Shown here piece after piece: positions 8,168 through 36,477 of a DNA stretch of 36,477 nt. Where the stretch lies: positions 1 through 36,477 of IMG/VR virus record IMGVR_UViG_3300027782_000184; one strand, written 5' to 3'. The position numbers and the translations under genes are program-made. The stretch comes from a virus. A model generated the notes under the pieces. The model had not been told where the DNA came from and did no database searches. It saw only the letters and a list, made by a program, of their open reading frames with translations. Each line of letters starts with the position of its first letter. Within the stretch, counting starts at the first letter, position 1.

Positions 8168-8806
8168 ATGAGCAAAATCAAAGAATTGCGTCAGGCCGCT
8201 GGCCTTAGTCAGGCGGCCCTAGGAGCGGCCATCGGTGCTGACGCGATGCTGATCAGTCGCCTGGAGCGGGGCGAACGTCGTTTGTCGGCGGAAACAGCCA
8301 TTAAATTGGCTGCTGCCTTGTCAGTGCCAGTCGGCCAGCTGATGGGCGACGCTGGCATAGTAGCTAGCGTTAAAGTGACGCAATCGCAGGACAAGCTGCC
8401 GGCTGGCGCAACACTGTACACGCCCGGGGGGCGGGATCTGCCAATCAGAGGGCTTGCCATGGGCGGTGACGGTCACATGCAGATGTCATCAGATGCCGTT
8501 GACTGGACCTGGCGCCCGCCAGAATTAGCTGGGGTTAAACATGCGTTTGCCTTGTTTGCGACTGGCGACAGCATGGAAGATGCCGTGATGGAAGGCACTA
8601 TTTTGCTGGTGCATCCGCATCAGCCCGTGCGCCCGCGCGACCTGTGCGTCATCGAGCTGGTTTCCGGTGAGCTGATCGTTAAGCGCCTGCTGCGCCGCAC
8701 GGCCAAGGAATACCAGCTGCGACAGTACAACCCGCCCATGGATTTTGCTGTGGCTGTAGATGAGATCCGCCATTGCTGGAGGGTCTGCGGCACCCAAATG
8801 CCGTAA
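8168..8806 (+). CDS. CI-like lysogeny repressor (HTH plus S24 peptidase)
   Basis: A 212-residue repressor. Residues 3-58 form an XRE-type helix-turn-helix (IKELRQAAGLSQAALG...LISRLERGER). The C-terminal domain is LexA/S24: GDSM with nucleophile S135, and K172 in ELIVKRL as the general base. Self-cleavage upon RecA activation after DNA damage would induce the prophage. The exact cleavage bond is not obvious; the G-L-A-M-G-G stretch at 95-100 lies in the right region. GGAG touches the start codon directly, an unusually short spacing, so translation may be weak. The gene is flanked by two copies of one operator, the expected layout for a repressor controlling both divergent operons and itself. 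Confidence 0.92.
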   Translation: MSKIKELRQAAGLSQAALGAAIGADAMLISRLERGERRLSAETAIKLAAALSVPVGQLMGDAGIVASVKVTQSQDKLPAGATLYTPGGRDLPIRGLAMGGDGHMQMSSDAVDWTWRPPELAGVKHAFALFATGDSMEDAVMEGTILLVHPHQPVRPRDLCVIELVSGELIVKRLLRRTAKEYQLRQYNPPMDFAVAVDEIRHCWRVCGTQMP

Positions 8807-10989: not shown

Positions 10990-11251
10990 CATTGCCGTCG
11001 CCCCTAGGGTCATGAGCCGCAAAGAAGCCGCAGCCTACGTCGGGCTCGGGGTCGATGCTTTCAACCAGGAGGTGCAGAGCGGCACCTTCCCCCAGCCCTT
11101 GACGCTTGCACGCACCCGCAGAGCGGTATGGGATCGCGTGGCCTTGGACAAGGCGCTGGATGCACAAATGGGAGCTGCAGTCGATGATTGGGAAATCAGG
11201 AAACAAGCCTGGAAAAACAGGCGTCAAAATCGTCAGAAAACGGCTCGCTGA
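10982..11251 (+). CDS. AlpA/excisionase-like HTH protein
   Basis: An 89-residue DNA-binding protein. MSRKEAAAYVGLGVDAFNQ (11-29) is the helix-turn-helix of AlpA/Xis-type proteins, followed by GTFPQPL and VWDRVALDKALD, the usual wing and last helix. The C-terminus is basic (NRRQNRQKTAR). It would bend DNA at the attachment site and direct the integrase towards excision. It overlaps the integrase start, so the two are made together. Confidence 0.75.
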   Translation: MSDIAVAPRVMSRKEAAAYVGLGVDAFNQEVQSGTFPQPLTLARTRRAVWDRVALDKALDAQMGAAVDDWEIRKQAWKNRRQNRQKTAR

Positions 11252-12236
11252 CGGCACGATACGCGAGTATCGCTATGGGGTCGCGGACGACGCACCAGCG
11301 CCCTCGACGCCGATGATTGCCACCATCATCAGGGCCTATGAGGCCAGCCCCGAGTGGGCCAAGCTGGCAGCTCAAACGCGCCGGTATTGTCGCCGGAACC
11401 ATGCCACCATAGAGGCCGCGCTGGGCTGGATGAGCCTCGACGACCTCAACGCCAAACGCGCCAGGTCGGAATTCTATGCCCTGCGCGACAGCCTGGCCGA
11501 TCGCCCGGCGACCTCGATGCTGGTCATCGCGTCGCTTAAAACGCTGCTGTCGTGGGCCGAAAAACGCGCCCTCATTGAGCATAATTGGGCCAGAGGCGTC
11601 GGGTCATTGTACGAGGGTGGCAAGCGCCAAGAACTGATCTGGACGCCCCAGCTGCAGCAGGCATTTATCGCCGGATGCGACCGGCCTGATGTGGCTGCCA
11701 TGTTCCAGTTTTGCGCGCTGACGGCGACGCGGATCGGGGACATGCTGGCGCTGCGCTGGTCGCAATTTGATGGCCGCTGGATCCGATTTAAGCCTCAGAA
11801 AACGACCCGCAAAGACACAACGTTAACCGTCAGCCTGCCGGTGTTTGCGCTGGCTCCGCTGGCGCAGCTGCTGGACGCCATGCCCCAGGGGGAAGCCGAC
11901 GCGCCAATATTCCCGCTGGCTGGCGGCATCACCTATATGGACCGGGGCCAGAACAGCGTGCGAGCTGTGACGCGTGCTGTGCGTCAAAAAATCAACGCCG
12001 AGCATCTGCACTGGCACGACCTGCGCGGCACCGCGATCAGCGCCTTGTTTGCCGCCGGATGCTCCGACGCCGAGGTTGCGTCGATCTCGGGCCACAAAAT
12101 CGGCGCCGGCAGCATGCTCGGTGCCTATGCTGCCCGTGGCGACGACCTAGCGATAAACGCGTTTCGAAAACTTGACACCCACCTGGCCCGTCCCGCCGTG
12201 GTCGTGCCGTTCCAGCCGCGGGTCGTGGTTGCTTAA
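11184..12236 (+). CDS. Tyrosine integrase
   Basis: A 350-residue phage integrase. The N-terminal segment VRKRLADGTIREYRYG (17-32) may form the arm-binding end. The catalytic set is R183 (TATRIGDML), H278 with R281 (HWHDLRGTA), H304 (SGHK) and Y315 (AYAARGD). It carries out integration and excision at attP, which should lie nearby; the candidate site begins five bases after its stop. The frame is open back to 11106, but ATG 11184, preceded by GGAG, gives the usual N-terminus. It overlaps the excisionase-like gene by 68 bases. Confidence 0.92.
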   Translation: MIGKSGNKPGKTGVKIVRKRLADGTIREYRYGVADDAPAPSTPMIATIIRAYEASPEWAKLAAQTRRYCRRNHATIEAALGWMSLDDLNAKRARSEFYALRDSLADRPATSMLVIASLKTLLSWAEKRALIEHNWARGVGSLYEGGKRQELIWTPQLQQAFIAGCDRPDVAAMFQFCALTATRIGDMLALRWSQFDGRWIRFKPQKTTRKDTTLTVSLPVFALAPLAQLLDAMPQGEADAPIFPLAGGITYMDRGQNSVRAVTRAVRQKINAEHLHWHDLRGTAISALFAAGCSDAEVASISGHKIGAGSMLGAYAARGDDLAINAFRKLDTHLARPAVVVPFQPRVVVA

Positions 12237-33217: not shown

Positions 33218-35020
33218 TCAGAGAACCAGGACACCGCGCGTCTCATAGACGCTGGTTTCCTCGGGCCGCCCTTGGCTGGCGCCGACCGCCATGCACAGTG
33301 CCACCATGCCGTCGATGCGGCCTGTGGCCTTGCGCTTGTCCCATTTCCTGTTGCCGCTCGGATCCGACGACAGCACGGCAGACGCTGAATTCCAGCGCAG
33401 GACCGGATTGCGCTGAATACTGATCGAACCGTTCACAACTACTTCTTCAAGGCTGCCGACAGATCGCGGCATCCACAGGGCGGTCGTCGACTGATAGCCG
33501 GCGAACCCTTGGCCGTGCCTGATCATCCGCAGGCCGATGCCCTGGCCCTTGTCGTCATCAATCCAGGCGTCGAACCCGATGTCGTCGCAGGCTTTCTGAA
33601 ACTCATCAATCTGCGCCTGGTCAAACGCCATGGCCTCGACCTTGTGCCGCGCGACCAGTCCCTCGACAAACTGCGCCACATGCGCCTTGTCGATGATCCT
33701 GCCGTCAGCGGCAAACAGATGGCCCTCTTGCACCCATGCCCTGTAAGGCACGTTGTCGGTGCGTGCATGCTCGTCCAGCGTTTCGCCCGGCGTCCAGAAC
33801 CATGTCGCTGCCGACAGCCGCCCGTCAGGGTGCCGCCAGACCGCCGCCAGAGCCGTCAGATCGCGTTTGCTCGACAGATCCAGACCCAGCCAGCACGGCA
33901 GGCCGACCATCTCGTCAACATCAAAATCAGCCTCTGAGGCGTCCCACAGATCGCGGTCGATCCAGGGCGCCGAGGCGTCTGTCCACTGGCAAAAATTCAG
34001 CCGCCTGACGATGGCCTCTTTTGCCGGCATGCCGCGCGCCTGGGTCACCTGCTCGCGCAGGTACTTGTCGGTGAATGTCACGCCCAGCGAAGGATTAGCC
34101 TTGCTCCAACAGCTCTCGTCTTTGAACGGGTCGTCACCCTCGTCGAGGGCGCAGACGTAGCCGAAAAACGCGTCGTCGATGATATCGCCGCGCGCCACTT
34201 TCCCGGCATATTCGTGGTACTGGTAACAGACGCCGGTGCGGTCAGCGCCGGAATTCGTGATCATAAAAATCAGCGCCTGGCGCCGACCCTTGGTGCCTGC
34301 CCGCAGCATCTCGACCATCTGGTTATCACGATGCTCGTGAACCTCGTCCAGCAGGGCGCAGTGTGGTCGCGGGCCGGATTGCCCGTCATCGCTTGATATG
34401 GGCCGAAAGAACGACCCGGTCGAAAGGAATGCGATGTTCCACTCACGACCAGGGCCGCCAGAAAACGTGACGCGTTCCTTCAGCGGTGGCGACTGCCTCA
34501 CCATCGACACCGCGTCGCGGAACAGGACCATCGCCTGATCCTTCTTCGACGCGGCAGCGTAAATCTCGGCTCGCGGCTCCTGGTCGCCGGTCATCATGTA
34601 AAGGCCGATACCAGCGGACAGCGGCGACTTGCCGGCGCCCTTGCCTGCCTCGACATAGCCAATCCGAAAGCGCCGGTAACCGTCGGCTGACTTCCAACCA
34701 AACAGCGACCCGACGATAAACGCCTGCCACGGCTCCAGCGCAAAGGGCCGGCCTTCATGCTCGCCGCCATTGAGGCGCAGCACGTCCTTAAAATATCCAA
34801 TCGCTCGACCAGCTGCGCCGACGTCGAAGGTCAGGCCCCGGTCGCCGCCTTGCACCAGGTCGCGCAAGTGACGCTCGCAAGCGGCCTTGACGTGCGGGCC
34901 AGCAATGGTTGAGCCATCAACGACCGCCTTGGCATAGGCCGTGGTCAGGTCGTCAGAAGTAGCCGTCGGCGGGGTCGGACTTTTCCGTTGGCGGGTTCGC
35001 TTTGATCCGGCTTCTGGCAC
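33218..35020 (-). CDS. Large terminase subunit
   Basis: A 600-residue packaging motor. N-terminal ATPase: Walker A EAGKGAGKS (124-132), Walker B CALLDEVHEH (221-230), coupling motif IFMITNSG (251-258). C-terminal RNase H-like nuclease: D381 in LGLDLSSKRDLTA, with later acidic residues in DDDKGQGIG. Matches Terminase_1 of HK97-like cos phages. The only reasonable start is a GTG at 35020, which overlaps the small subunit gene by 68 bases; a weak start may set stoichiometry. Confidence 0.9.
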   Translation of the reverse strand: MPEAGSKRTRQRKSPTPPTATSDDLTTAYAKAVVDGSTIAGPHVKAACERHLRDLVQGGDRGLTFDVGAAGRAIGYFKDVLRLNGGEHEGRPFALEPWQAFIVGSLFGWKSADGYRRFRIGYVEAGKGAGKSPLSAGIGLYMMTGDQEPRAEIYAAASKKDQAMVLFRDAVSMVRQSPPLKERVTFSGGPGREWNIAFLSTGSFFRPISSDDGQSGPRPHCALLDEVHEHRDNQMVEMLRAGTKGRRQALIFMITNSGADRTGVCYQYHEYAGKVARGDIIDDAFFGYVCALDEGDDPFKDESCWSKANPSLGVTFTDKYLREQVTQARGMPAKEAIVRRLNFCQWTDASAPWIDRDLWDASEADFDVDEMVGLPCWLGLDLSSKRDLTALAAVWRHPDGRLSAATWFWTPGETLDEHARTDNVPYRAWVQEGHLFAADGRIIDKAHVAQFVEGLVARHKVEAMAFDQAQIDEFQKACDDIGFDAWIDDDKGQGIGLRMIRHGQGFAGYQSTTALWMPRSVGSLEEVVVNGSISIQRNPVLRWNSASAVLSSDPSGNRKWDKRKATGRIDGMVALCMAVGASQGRPEETSVYETRGVLVL

Positions 35021-35432
35021 TAGGCGTCATCCCGAATTCGGCGGCATATCGCACCATGTCGGTGGCCGCCTTGTGGGCCGTCCCGACCAGAGGGTTCTGG
35101 ATCGCATTGCCATTGGTTGTCGTGATCATCAGGCCACCAGTGACCGGATCAAGCTCAGCCATCTTTGCAATCGCTCGGGTCGCCGTTGCCCAGATGCCGT
35201 AAGACTGGCAATAGGCTGCAAGCGCCGCTCGGTCGATGTTTGCCAGCAGGCCGGCCTCGTACAGAGCCACCGACACGCGATCCCATTCTTGCCTGCCATC
35301 TGGCAGCAGATGATCCGGCGCCTGCGGCAGCGAGGGCGCGACCTTGGCCTCGCTGGCATTGACTGGACGCTTCCCCGGATTTCCCGCGATCAGCTTTAGG
35401 TGCGTGGGCTTCGGTTTTCTGCCTACGGGCAT
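34953..35432 (-). CDS. Small terminase subunit (P27 family)
   Basis: A 159-residue protein. RKPKPTHLKLIAGNPGKRP (5-23) is the signature opening of P27-type small terminases. The rest is helical (EWDRVSVALYEAGLL, AALAAYCQSYG), ending in a basic/acidic tail. It recognises the packaging site. AGG lies five bases upstream of the ATG. The start region overlaps the promoter of the divergent SLOG gene. Confidence 0.9.
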   Translation of the reverse strand: MPVGRKPKPTHLKLIAGNPGKRPVNASEAKVAPSLPQAPDHLLPDGRQEWDRVSVALYEAGLLANIDRAALAAYCQSYGIWATATRAIAKMAELDPVTGGLMITTTNGNAIQNPLVGTAHKAATDMVRYAAEFGMTPSARSRIKANPPTEKSDPADGYF

Positions 35433-35465
35433 TGTAACCTACAAGATTGTGGGAAATAATTCCCA
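35432..35465 (+). promoter_or_regulatory. Promoter and operators of the SLOG gene, apparently leaderless
   Basis: TTGTAA (35432-35437) and AATAAT (35455-35460) are exactly 17 bases apart, 4/6 and 5/6 matches to sigma-70 boxes. The predicted start falls on or next to the ATG at 35467, so the mRNA would have no leader; no ribosome site is seen. Two inverted repeats cover the boxes: TTGTA/TACAA (35432-35444) and TGGGAA/TTCCCA (35450-35465). Confidence 0.65.
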
Positions 35466-35466
35466 G

Positions 35467-35817
35467 ATGAAGATCGCCATAATCGGATCGCGGCGCCGAA
35501 CAGACCGCCAAACAATCGACGATTACGTCGCTACGCTTCCCGCTGGCACCGTGGTCGTGTCTGGCGGCGCCCGTGGCCCTGACACCTGGGCGGCTGATGC
35601 CGCCAAGGCTTGCGGCCTGGACGTTGTCGAATTCCTTCCCGATCTGGATGACGTCCGCAATCGCGGCGAAGCAACCAGGCGGTACTACGCCCGCAACCAG
35701 CAGGTCGTTGATGCGGTCGATCAGGTTGTCGCCTTGGTCGCGCCAGACCGACGCGGCGGAACCGAACACACCATCAAGTGCGCCCAGCTGGCCGGTAAGC
35801 CCGTCATCCTGCTTTGA
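35467..35817 (+). CDS. SLOG-domain (DUF2493/YpsA-like) nucleotide-binding protein
   Basis: A 116-residue Rossmann-like protein. MKIAIIGSRR (1-10), VSGGARGPDTWAADAA (31-46) and the closing GGTEHTI (97-103) match the DUF2493/cpYpsA branch of the SLOG superfamily (with DprA and LOG). SLOG domains bind nucleotides or nucleotide-derived signals; some serve in defence (for example ThsA in Thoeris). No enzymatic partner domain is fused. It is the only plus-strand gene in the terminase region, with its own promoter and operators, so it is probably expressed in the lysogen. It ends overlapping the phosphoribosyltransferase gene tail to tail by 14 bases. Confidence 0.75.
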   Translation: MKIAIIGSRRRTDRQTIDDYVATLPAGTVVVSGGARGPDTWAADAAKACGLDVVEFLPDLDDVRNRGEATRRYYARNQQVVDAVDQVVALVAPDRRGGTEHTIKCAQLAGKPVILL

Positions 35818-36337
35818 CCTCGCCGCCCAACCACGCCAGCGCAATCACCGGGGCAGCCTGTTGACGCAGCAGGGTTGCCGCTTCCTCCAGATGCCAGCCT
35901 GATGTTGCAATGTCGTCCAGCAGCAGGATCGGGCCTGTCGGCCTGTTCATCCACTGCAAAGGCGGTAGGTTCTTGAATTCTTTAGGGTGCGACACGCCCT
36001 TTACAGGCCGCGCCTCAAAAGCCCAGACCACCGGGCATTCTAGTTTCACCGCGACCGCGCTGGCGACCATGGCCGCCAGGTTGGCTTCGTATTTCTGACT
36101 GTGACCTGGTGCCACCGGCACAATGGTCATATTGCCCTGCGGCCAAAACATTTTCTCGACCGCGCCGGCAATCTCGGTCGCCATGATCTCAACCAAAGCC
36201 GGATCCAATGCCGCCTTGGCCGCCTTGATCTGGGCAATGGCCTGACGTTTGGCGTCCGACCGCCACGCCCGCAGCGTGTGATACGACACCGCATTCCGCG
36301 ATCTGACCGATGGTCGCCAGACCAGCCCGTCGGTCAT
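35804..36337 (-). CDS. Phosphoribosyltransferase-fold protein
   Basis: A 177-residue protein. ILLLDDIATSGWHLEEA (137-153) is a textbook PRPP-binding motif of type I phosphoribosyltransferases, preceded by VPVAPGHSQKYE (73-84), which resembles the loop of ComF-type members. The N-terminus (WRPSVRSRNAVSYHTLRAW) looks like a separate small helix segment. Substrate unknown: nucleobase salvage or a nucleotide-signal role are both possible. The ATG has no ribosome site but overlaps a TGA of the frame coming from the window edge (ATGA), so translation is probably coupled to that gene. Confidence 0.75.
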   Translation of the reverse strand: MTDGLVWRPSVRSRNAVSYHTLRAWRSDAKRQAIAQIKAAKAALDPALVEIMATEIAGAVEKMFWPQGNMTIVPVAPGHSQKYEANLAAMVASAVAVKLECPVVWAFEARPVKGVSHPKEFKNLPPLQWMNRPTGPILLLDDIATSGWHLEEAATLLRQQAAPVIALAWLGGEVKAG

Positions 36338-36477
36338 TTCGGATTTGGCGACAGCGACGCGGGGGCGCCGCAGGCTTCACTTTCTGCTCTGTCTGCCAGC
36401 CCATCAGGGCGGCCAGGTCGGACATCGCCAGCAAAATGAAATCCTGACTTCTCAAATTGCGGCGCTGAACACGAAGG
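36334..36477 (-). CDS. Gene fragment cut by the window edge, frame uncertain
   Basis: A frame without stop enters from the right edge and ends PASLSPNPK at TGA 36334, forming ATGA with the phosphoribosyltransferase start. The first part of this frame has poor GC at third positions. The neighbouring frame (RSQDFILLAMSDLAALMGWQ...QKVKPAAPP, open to the edge and on to 36189) looks more coding until a run of five C residues (36365-36361 on the minus strand). The simplest reading that joins both is a one-base shift at that run, real or from sequencing. Confidence 0.4.
   Translation of the reverse strand, partial: PSCSAPQFEKSGFHFAGDVRPGRPDGLADRAESEACGAPASLSPNPK

Follow-up and report, generated by a model that had tools for sequence, protein, structure and literature searches.

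A recurrent SLOG–phosphoribosyltransferase gene pair at the terminase side of uncultivated phages, a possible regulator–effector module

The stretch of DNA analyzed here, hereafter the window, is an IMG/VR virus record of 36,477 bp, at the ends of which we looked for terminal repeats and saw none. Its genes for an integrase and a CI-like repressor indicate a phage that is probably temperate. The terminase genes, TerS and TerL, adjoin a pair of genes for a SLOG protein and a phosphoribosyltransferase (PRTase), with TerS divergent from SLOG and 34 bp between them. The features of the window are the following:

8168-8806, plus strand: CI-like repressor, HTH with a LexA/UmuD-type C-terminus (phrog_4, E=5e-28)
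11106-12236, plus strand: phage integrase (phrog_1, E=2e-32)
33218-35020, minus strand: TerL, ATPase and nuclease (PF03354, PF20441; phrog_9, E=1e-148)
34953-35432, minus strand: TerS, P27 family (PF05119, E=6.5e-27; TIGR01558 over cut-off; phrog_83)
35432-35460, plus strand: sigma-70-like hexamers, TTGTAA-17-AATAAT (9/12 matches)
35432-35444, no strand: palindrome TTGTAaccTACAA, covering the first hexamer together with base 1 of the TerS start codon
35450-35465, no strand: palindrome TGGGAAataaTTCCCA, covering the second hexamer
35467-35817, plus strand: SLOG gene, YAcAr/YspA-type, single Rossmann domain, 116 aa (PF10686, AF2 model)
35804-35817, no strand: tail-to-tail overlap of the SLOG and PRTase coding sequences, 14 bp (from the coordinates)
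35804-36337, minus strand: ComF-like type I PRTase gene, 177 aa (AF2 fold and PRPP loop)

The SLOG protein passes the curated cut-off of the Pfam family YAcAr (PF10686; 36.6 bits against 28.2) and belongs to phrog_289 as well. Its AF2 model (pLDDT 95) predicts a SLOG/DprA-type Rossmann fold whose best PDB match is ShosA (8zva), followed by DprA and YpsA; the nearest solved structures, ShosA and DprA, are DNA-linked proteins. When the protein was aligned with its relatives, the LOG phosphoribohydrolase motif PGGxGTxxE was absent, and KGGTEDT or RGGTEHT was found in its place. An earlier note on this DNA had placed the 5' end of SLOG at the ATG at 35467, rightly so, because this codon aligns with the starts of the relatives. 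It had also described the 3' end as overlapping a facing gene for a PRPP-binding protein, which the 14 bp at 35804-35817 confirm.

Regarding the PRTase, its single sequence matches PF00156 weakly (E=0.05; 13.4 bits, under the 26.3 cut-off). An AF2 model with a 12-sequence alignment as input was confident (pLDDT 87.6), and its best PDB match was the ComF of H. pylori (7p0h; E=5e-7, TMq 0.64), with many other PRTases also matching. The PRPP loop, LLLDDIATSGWH, spans approximately residues 138-149, and D141, D142, S146, G147 and H149 are invariant in the alignment of 12 relatives. Judging from the model, the protein is a type I PRTase fold with an intact PRPP loop; fold and loop carry this assignment because the matches to the PF00156, ComF and ShosT profiles are weak by themselves. 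The N-terminal cysteine zinc finger typical of ComF was not found, the window PRTase having no cysteine cluster. A NAD+ salvage PRTase of the NadV type (a TIM-barrel nicotinamide PRTase) was ruled out by the predicted type I fold, and with it the connection to NAD precursors suggested in the earlier note. Upstream of the PRTase ATG, 140 bp of the contig remain. In this interval, another frame 5' of the ATG (36338-36407, minus strand; MSDLAALMGWQTEQKVKPAAPP...) could encode the true N-terminus if there is a frameshift.

Single-sequence searches were nearly blind to both families. A pattern scan with the window SLOG found zero relatives and one with the PRTase only two, and a single-sequence search with the PRTase gave 0 matches in 50,697 deposited phage genomes and none in genome contigs. 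The PRTase family was present in 2 of 385 alphaproteobacterial genomes. The relatives described below were recovered through alignments and profile scans.

The region before SLOG had been read as a regulated promoter of its own, with boxes at an exact 17-base spacing and two palindromes over them. Both elements are present as described. The box pair is one of two found within 35200-36477, where 0.2 would be expected, and when the 40-bp stretch is shuffled, about 4% of the results score as high (p ~0.04). AT-matched stretches contain two such palindromes per 40 bp in about 1% of cases. As far as the sequence allows us to say, boxes and palindromes are real, and they exceed chance by a modest margin. 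What makes the operator idea weak is that five relatives of the same convergent layout (L003, L010, L015, L126 and L145) have no matching palindromes 5' of the SLOG start; in L003 the starts of TerS and SLOG almost touch. We have therefore rejected a conserved operator or promoter as a feature of the family. The second box ends 6 bp 5' of the SLOG ATG and no Shine-Dalgarno was seen there, an arrangement consistent with a 'leaderless' start. Autonomous expression of SLOG in the window phage is plausible because the gene lies on the strand opposite to the late genes.

The pair is found well beyond the window. Profile scans, counting distinct contigs, showed SLOG directly adjoining a PRTase of the same family (the A3 family) in the window and in 16 other IMG/VR contigs. 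The two genes are arranged in tandem (L002, L004, L005, L008, L011, L014, L132, L133, L151 and L155), tail to tail (the window, L003, L010, L015, L126 and L145) or, in L013, head to head. One metagenome is common to L008, L011 and L014, and another to L133 and L155. The convergent overlap measures 14 bp in five of the six cases (all but L003). Sequence-divergent versions of the pair were detected in four more records (L157, L160, L218 and MW202482.1), the last of which is a complete circular phage in which the neighbor of SLOG is annotated as 'prtase' and overlaps it by 12 bp. Besides, at least six contigs carry both domains in one open reading frame (L168, L169/L213, L166/L214, L171, L172 and L167), and the PRTase domain of the fused protein is collinear with the window PRTase (E=2e-5 across 152 aa). 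Co-occurrence beyond this genome had been proposed as the check on the pairing, and these 16 and 4 further records, plus the fusions, bear it out. Of the earlier interpretation, the idea that the genes form a unit stands; the conserved operator or promoter and the link to NAD precursors do not. According to these results, SLOG and PRTase genes constitute a real two-part phage module, since they recur side by side, sometimes fused, in more than 20 other phages. The module resembles a pared-down form of toxin–regulator pairs that bacteria are known to use against phages.

Several particulars of these loci deserve mention. The 'prtase' of MW202482.1 (L290:4388-5389, minus strand) carries at its N-terminus an additional segment with a cysteine/HGGSSK motif; by eye, segments of this type are seen in packaging-region phage proteins. 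Extended C-terminal tails are present on the PRTases of L004, L005 and L009, and also of L006 and L007, with related W..PG motif endings (SPFGR..VWR.GR, YTWWLPGS and KAWTPGG). Genes that look NusG-like by eye, possibly late antiterminators, lie near the module in L010 (5005-5538), L013 (3585-4346) and L145 (5982-6590).

The terminase neighborhood is equally recurrent. In the first set counted, a TerL-like gene lay within 4 kb of 19 of the 21 PRTase-linked SLOGs versus 3 of the 96 other phage SLOGs (Fisher 9e-17), a contrast that is conservative because some loci among the 96 turned out afterwards to be linked to a PRTase. None of 78 other phage SLOG loci taken from the first scan had an open reading frame with a PRPP loop in the 4 kb around it. 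At least four terminase families (phrog_9, phrog_2, phrog_15 and phrog_38) are represented next to the module, and TerS there comes from several families. Because the terminase families differ, the cassette recurs at one site and is not merely inherited with one terminase. The paired SLOGs, as judged from the 11 first found, form one clade (support 84/90). With near-copies left out, the distances among PRTases correlate weakly with those among SLOGs (r=0.29, p=0.056). Both genes are under purifying selection in one close pair, L004 and L005 (dN/dS: PRTase 0.08, SLOG 0.17). HigBA-like toxin-antitoxin genes, recognized by eye, are found beside the module at L013:4300-4877 and L016:6569-7229, which fits a terminase-side cargo hotspot.

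Not every PRTase has a partner. We found intact PRTases without SLOG at about nine distinct loci (L006, L007, L009, L012, L016, L117, L118 and L120/L122), scattered among the paired ones on the PRTase tree. A strict toxin–antitoxin arrangement with an obligate partner is weakened by this, because the SLOG-less PRTases are intact and sit amid paired ones. RqlH, likewise, also occurs without RqlI (PMC4670107). Conversely, a SLOG without PRTase (L023:4001-6762) lies right before a Nu1-type TerS and a lambda-type TerL. In the loci inspected, the PRTase is co-directional with the terminase genes, and it overlaps or abuts TerS or TerL in L004, L005, L009, L012, L120 and L122, the gene abutted being TerL in the last three. 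In L013 (5851-7068, plus strand), PRTase and TerS (phrog_606) share one open frame of 405 aa with no stop in between, which is either a fusion or a read-in with an internal start.

Some copies are damaged. L003 and L014 have a broken PRTase and an intact SLOG, and the reverse was never seen. We have dropped this pattern as a hint of toxicity, given that L011 and L155 are damaged in both genes and that sequencing error is possible. The PRTase of L014 (4903-6312) looks split, with its N-terminal half upstream and inverted, and an open reading frame with a serine recombinase-like beginning continues into its C-terminal half.

To account for these observations, we tentatively favor, at somewhat less than an even chance, a single phage-borne module in which SLOG would bind a ComF-like PRTase effector and control it, carried as cargo by temperate phages and probably guarding the lysogen. 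SLOG would be a stripped-down Rossmann domain of the DprA/ShosA kind that directly binds the PRTase and holds or tunes its activity. Once released, the PRTase, as the effector, would disturb PRPP and purine nucleotides or DNA, following the logic of ShosTA, PsyrTA, RqlHI and the DprA–ComFC interaction. The temperate phage would carry the module in a hotspot at its packaging (terminase/cos) site, and the lysogen would probably be protected from other phages. The sequences themselves establish the two families, their repeated adjacency, the fusions, the link to terminases and, in one close pair, purifying selection. Physical binding between the two proteins is suggested by the fusions and by analogy; regulation, toxicity and an anti-phage role are what we infer. 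Given the resemblance to ShosTA and PsyrTA, the defense or signal-sensing unit imagined in the earlier note is plausible.

One could argue, instead, that the PRTase belongs to the late phage proteins and serves packaging or late DNA metabolism, with SLOG as an optional tuning partner; it might sense or adjust PRPP and purines, or handle DNA ends as ComF and DprA handle ssDNA. A late packaging-linked function stays the main rival because in several loci the PRTase gene directly touches or overlaps those of the terminase, and because it shares a frame with TerS in L013; its orientation along the terminase genes, its recurrence next to phrog_9, phrog_2, phrog_15 and phrog_38 terminases, and the SLOG-less PRTases occupying the same place speak for it too. 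However, a PRTase this rare (0 of 50,697 phage genomes; 2 of 385 from alphaproteobacteria) is not a general packaging factor, about ten loci have SLOG on the opposite strand, and a hotspot for cargo is known at the terminase side (PMC9122126). We consider this explanation unlikely on balance, though a serious contender. A related proposal, which we hold to be doubtful, is a terminase-coupled regulator: the PRTase would be translated with or within the packaging proteins and gated by SLOG as a nucleotide or DNA sensor. If true, the state of purines and PRPP or of DNA ends would be linked to packaging or to the exclusion of competing phage DNA. To our knowledge, such a packaging checkpoint has not been described for any phage.

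The remaining explanations give the pair a different chemistry or no joint function. LOG-type SLOG enzymes and PRTases have opposite chemistries, so that SLOG could free a base and the PRTase join it to PRPP, yielding a modified phage nucleotide by salvage or base modification; fusions would suit such a two-step enzyme. But the LOG glutamate motif is absent and no further base-modification genes were recognized among the window proteins scanned, which makes this very unlikely. Counter-defense, with SLOG binding or degrading nucleotide immune signals of the cADPr type and the PRTase recycling the released base or nucleotide, is a little less improbable, yet still improbable. Viral SLOG domains have been proposed to counter ADP-ribose-derived signals (PMC9503650), and YAcAr SLOGs are reported in some jumbo phages (PMC7824862); however, among the neighbors of the genes inspected, none was recognized as a Macro, NADAR or Nudix partner, and, where LOG enzymes have PGGxGTxxE, the SLOG here has KGGTEDT and finds its nearest solved structures in ShosA and DprA. 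Finally, the two genes could be independent cargo that came to lie together by chance in the same hotspot, given the cargo found at the terminase side, the HigBA-like genes recognized by eye next to the pair in L013 and in L016, and the lone SLOG next to the terminase in L023. The fused proteins, at least six of them, the more than 20 contigs in which the two genes directly adjoin, and the other phage SLOGs, which are not enriched near terminases, render this extremely improbable; on the grounds of the fusions and the SLOG control set, we rejected co-residence in a hotspot as the sole cause of the adjacency.

The interest of the module lies in its size and its location. It compresses a DprA/ComF-type pair into about 290 residues overall, or into a single fused protein, so that the control of PRTases by SLOG/DprA proteins can be tested directly. 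The terminase side, moreover, emerges as a place where diverse phages carry such modules, and our search profile should be useful for uncultivated phages, because the PRTase has no match in the 50,697 deposited genomes.

By comparing the pair with known systems, we can place it among several relatives. In the PADLOC library, the window PRTase matches PsyrT (3e-9) and ShosT (3e-6), and the window SLOG matches ShosA (3e-7) and PsyrA (3e-6). We recovered genuine ShosTA loci as a yardstick, with ShosA of about 280-330 aa in L104-L106. As in ShosTA, a PRTase gene directly adjoins or overlaps a SLOG/DprA-type gene, the top PDB match of the SLOG model is ShosA itself, H replaces T in the PRPP loop (TxGTH and TSGWH), an SH pair is present in the flexible loop of both PRTases, and the genes are phage-borne and close to the packaging site. 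ShosT has been described as a PRTase/pyrophosphatase that disturbs purine metabolism (review PMC12593503). Unlike ShosTA, however, the SLOG here has 116 aa instead of the approximately 300 of ShosA; it faces the PRTase in the window and is fused to it in other loci, whereas ShosA lies upstream of and in tandem with ShosT; and the similarity of the phage PRTases to ShosT is limited to the PRPP loop, with the ComF profile slightly better. Regarding PsyrTA and RqlHI, the DprA-like partner restrains the PRTase by binding its PRTase domain, as reported for RqlI and RqlH (PMC4670107), and the window PRTase matches the PRTase part of PsyrT, but it consists of the PRTase only (177 aa), without a RecQ-type helicase domain, and its partner is much smaller. 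ComF is the top structural match of the phage PRTase, and ComFC interacts with DprA (PMC9005727) in natural transformation; the phage pair differs in having no zinc finger, no competence genes and a PRPP loop that ends in H, not T. The phage YAcAr/YspA SLOGs (phrog_289) share the Pfam and PHROG families of the window SLOG, although most of them, in the loci examined, have no PRTase partner and lie away from terminases. A precedent for the setting is a P2-like phage hotspot beside cos, in which a DprA and PRTase pair protects against T7 and lambda (PMC9122126). The architecture of the module is thus like that of ShosTA, PsyrTA/RqlHI and DprA–ComFC, yet several defining features of each are missing. 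In the papers on viral SLOG proteins that we consulted, the passages covered describe no SLOG–PRTase pairing. Pairs of a DprA/SLOG protein and a PRTase are already known; the features that appear to be new are a minimal SLOG partner of a single domain, its fusion to the PRTase, and the association with many terminase types in uncultivated phages.
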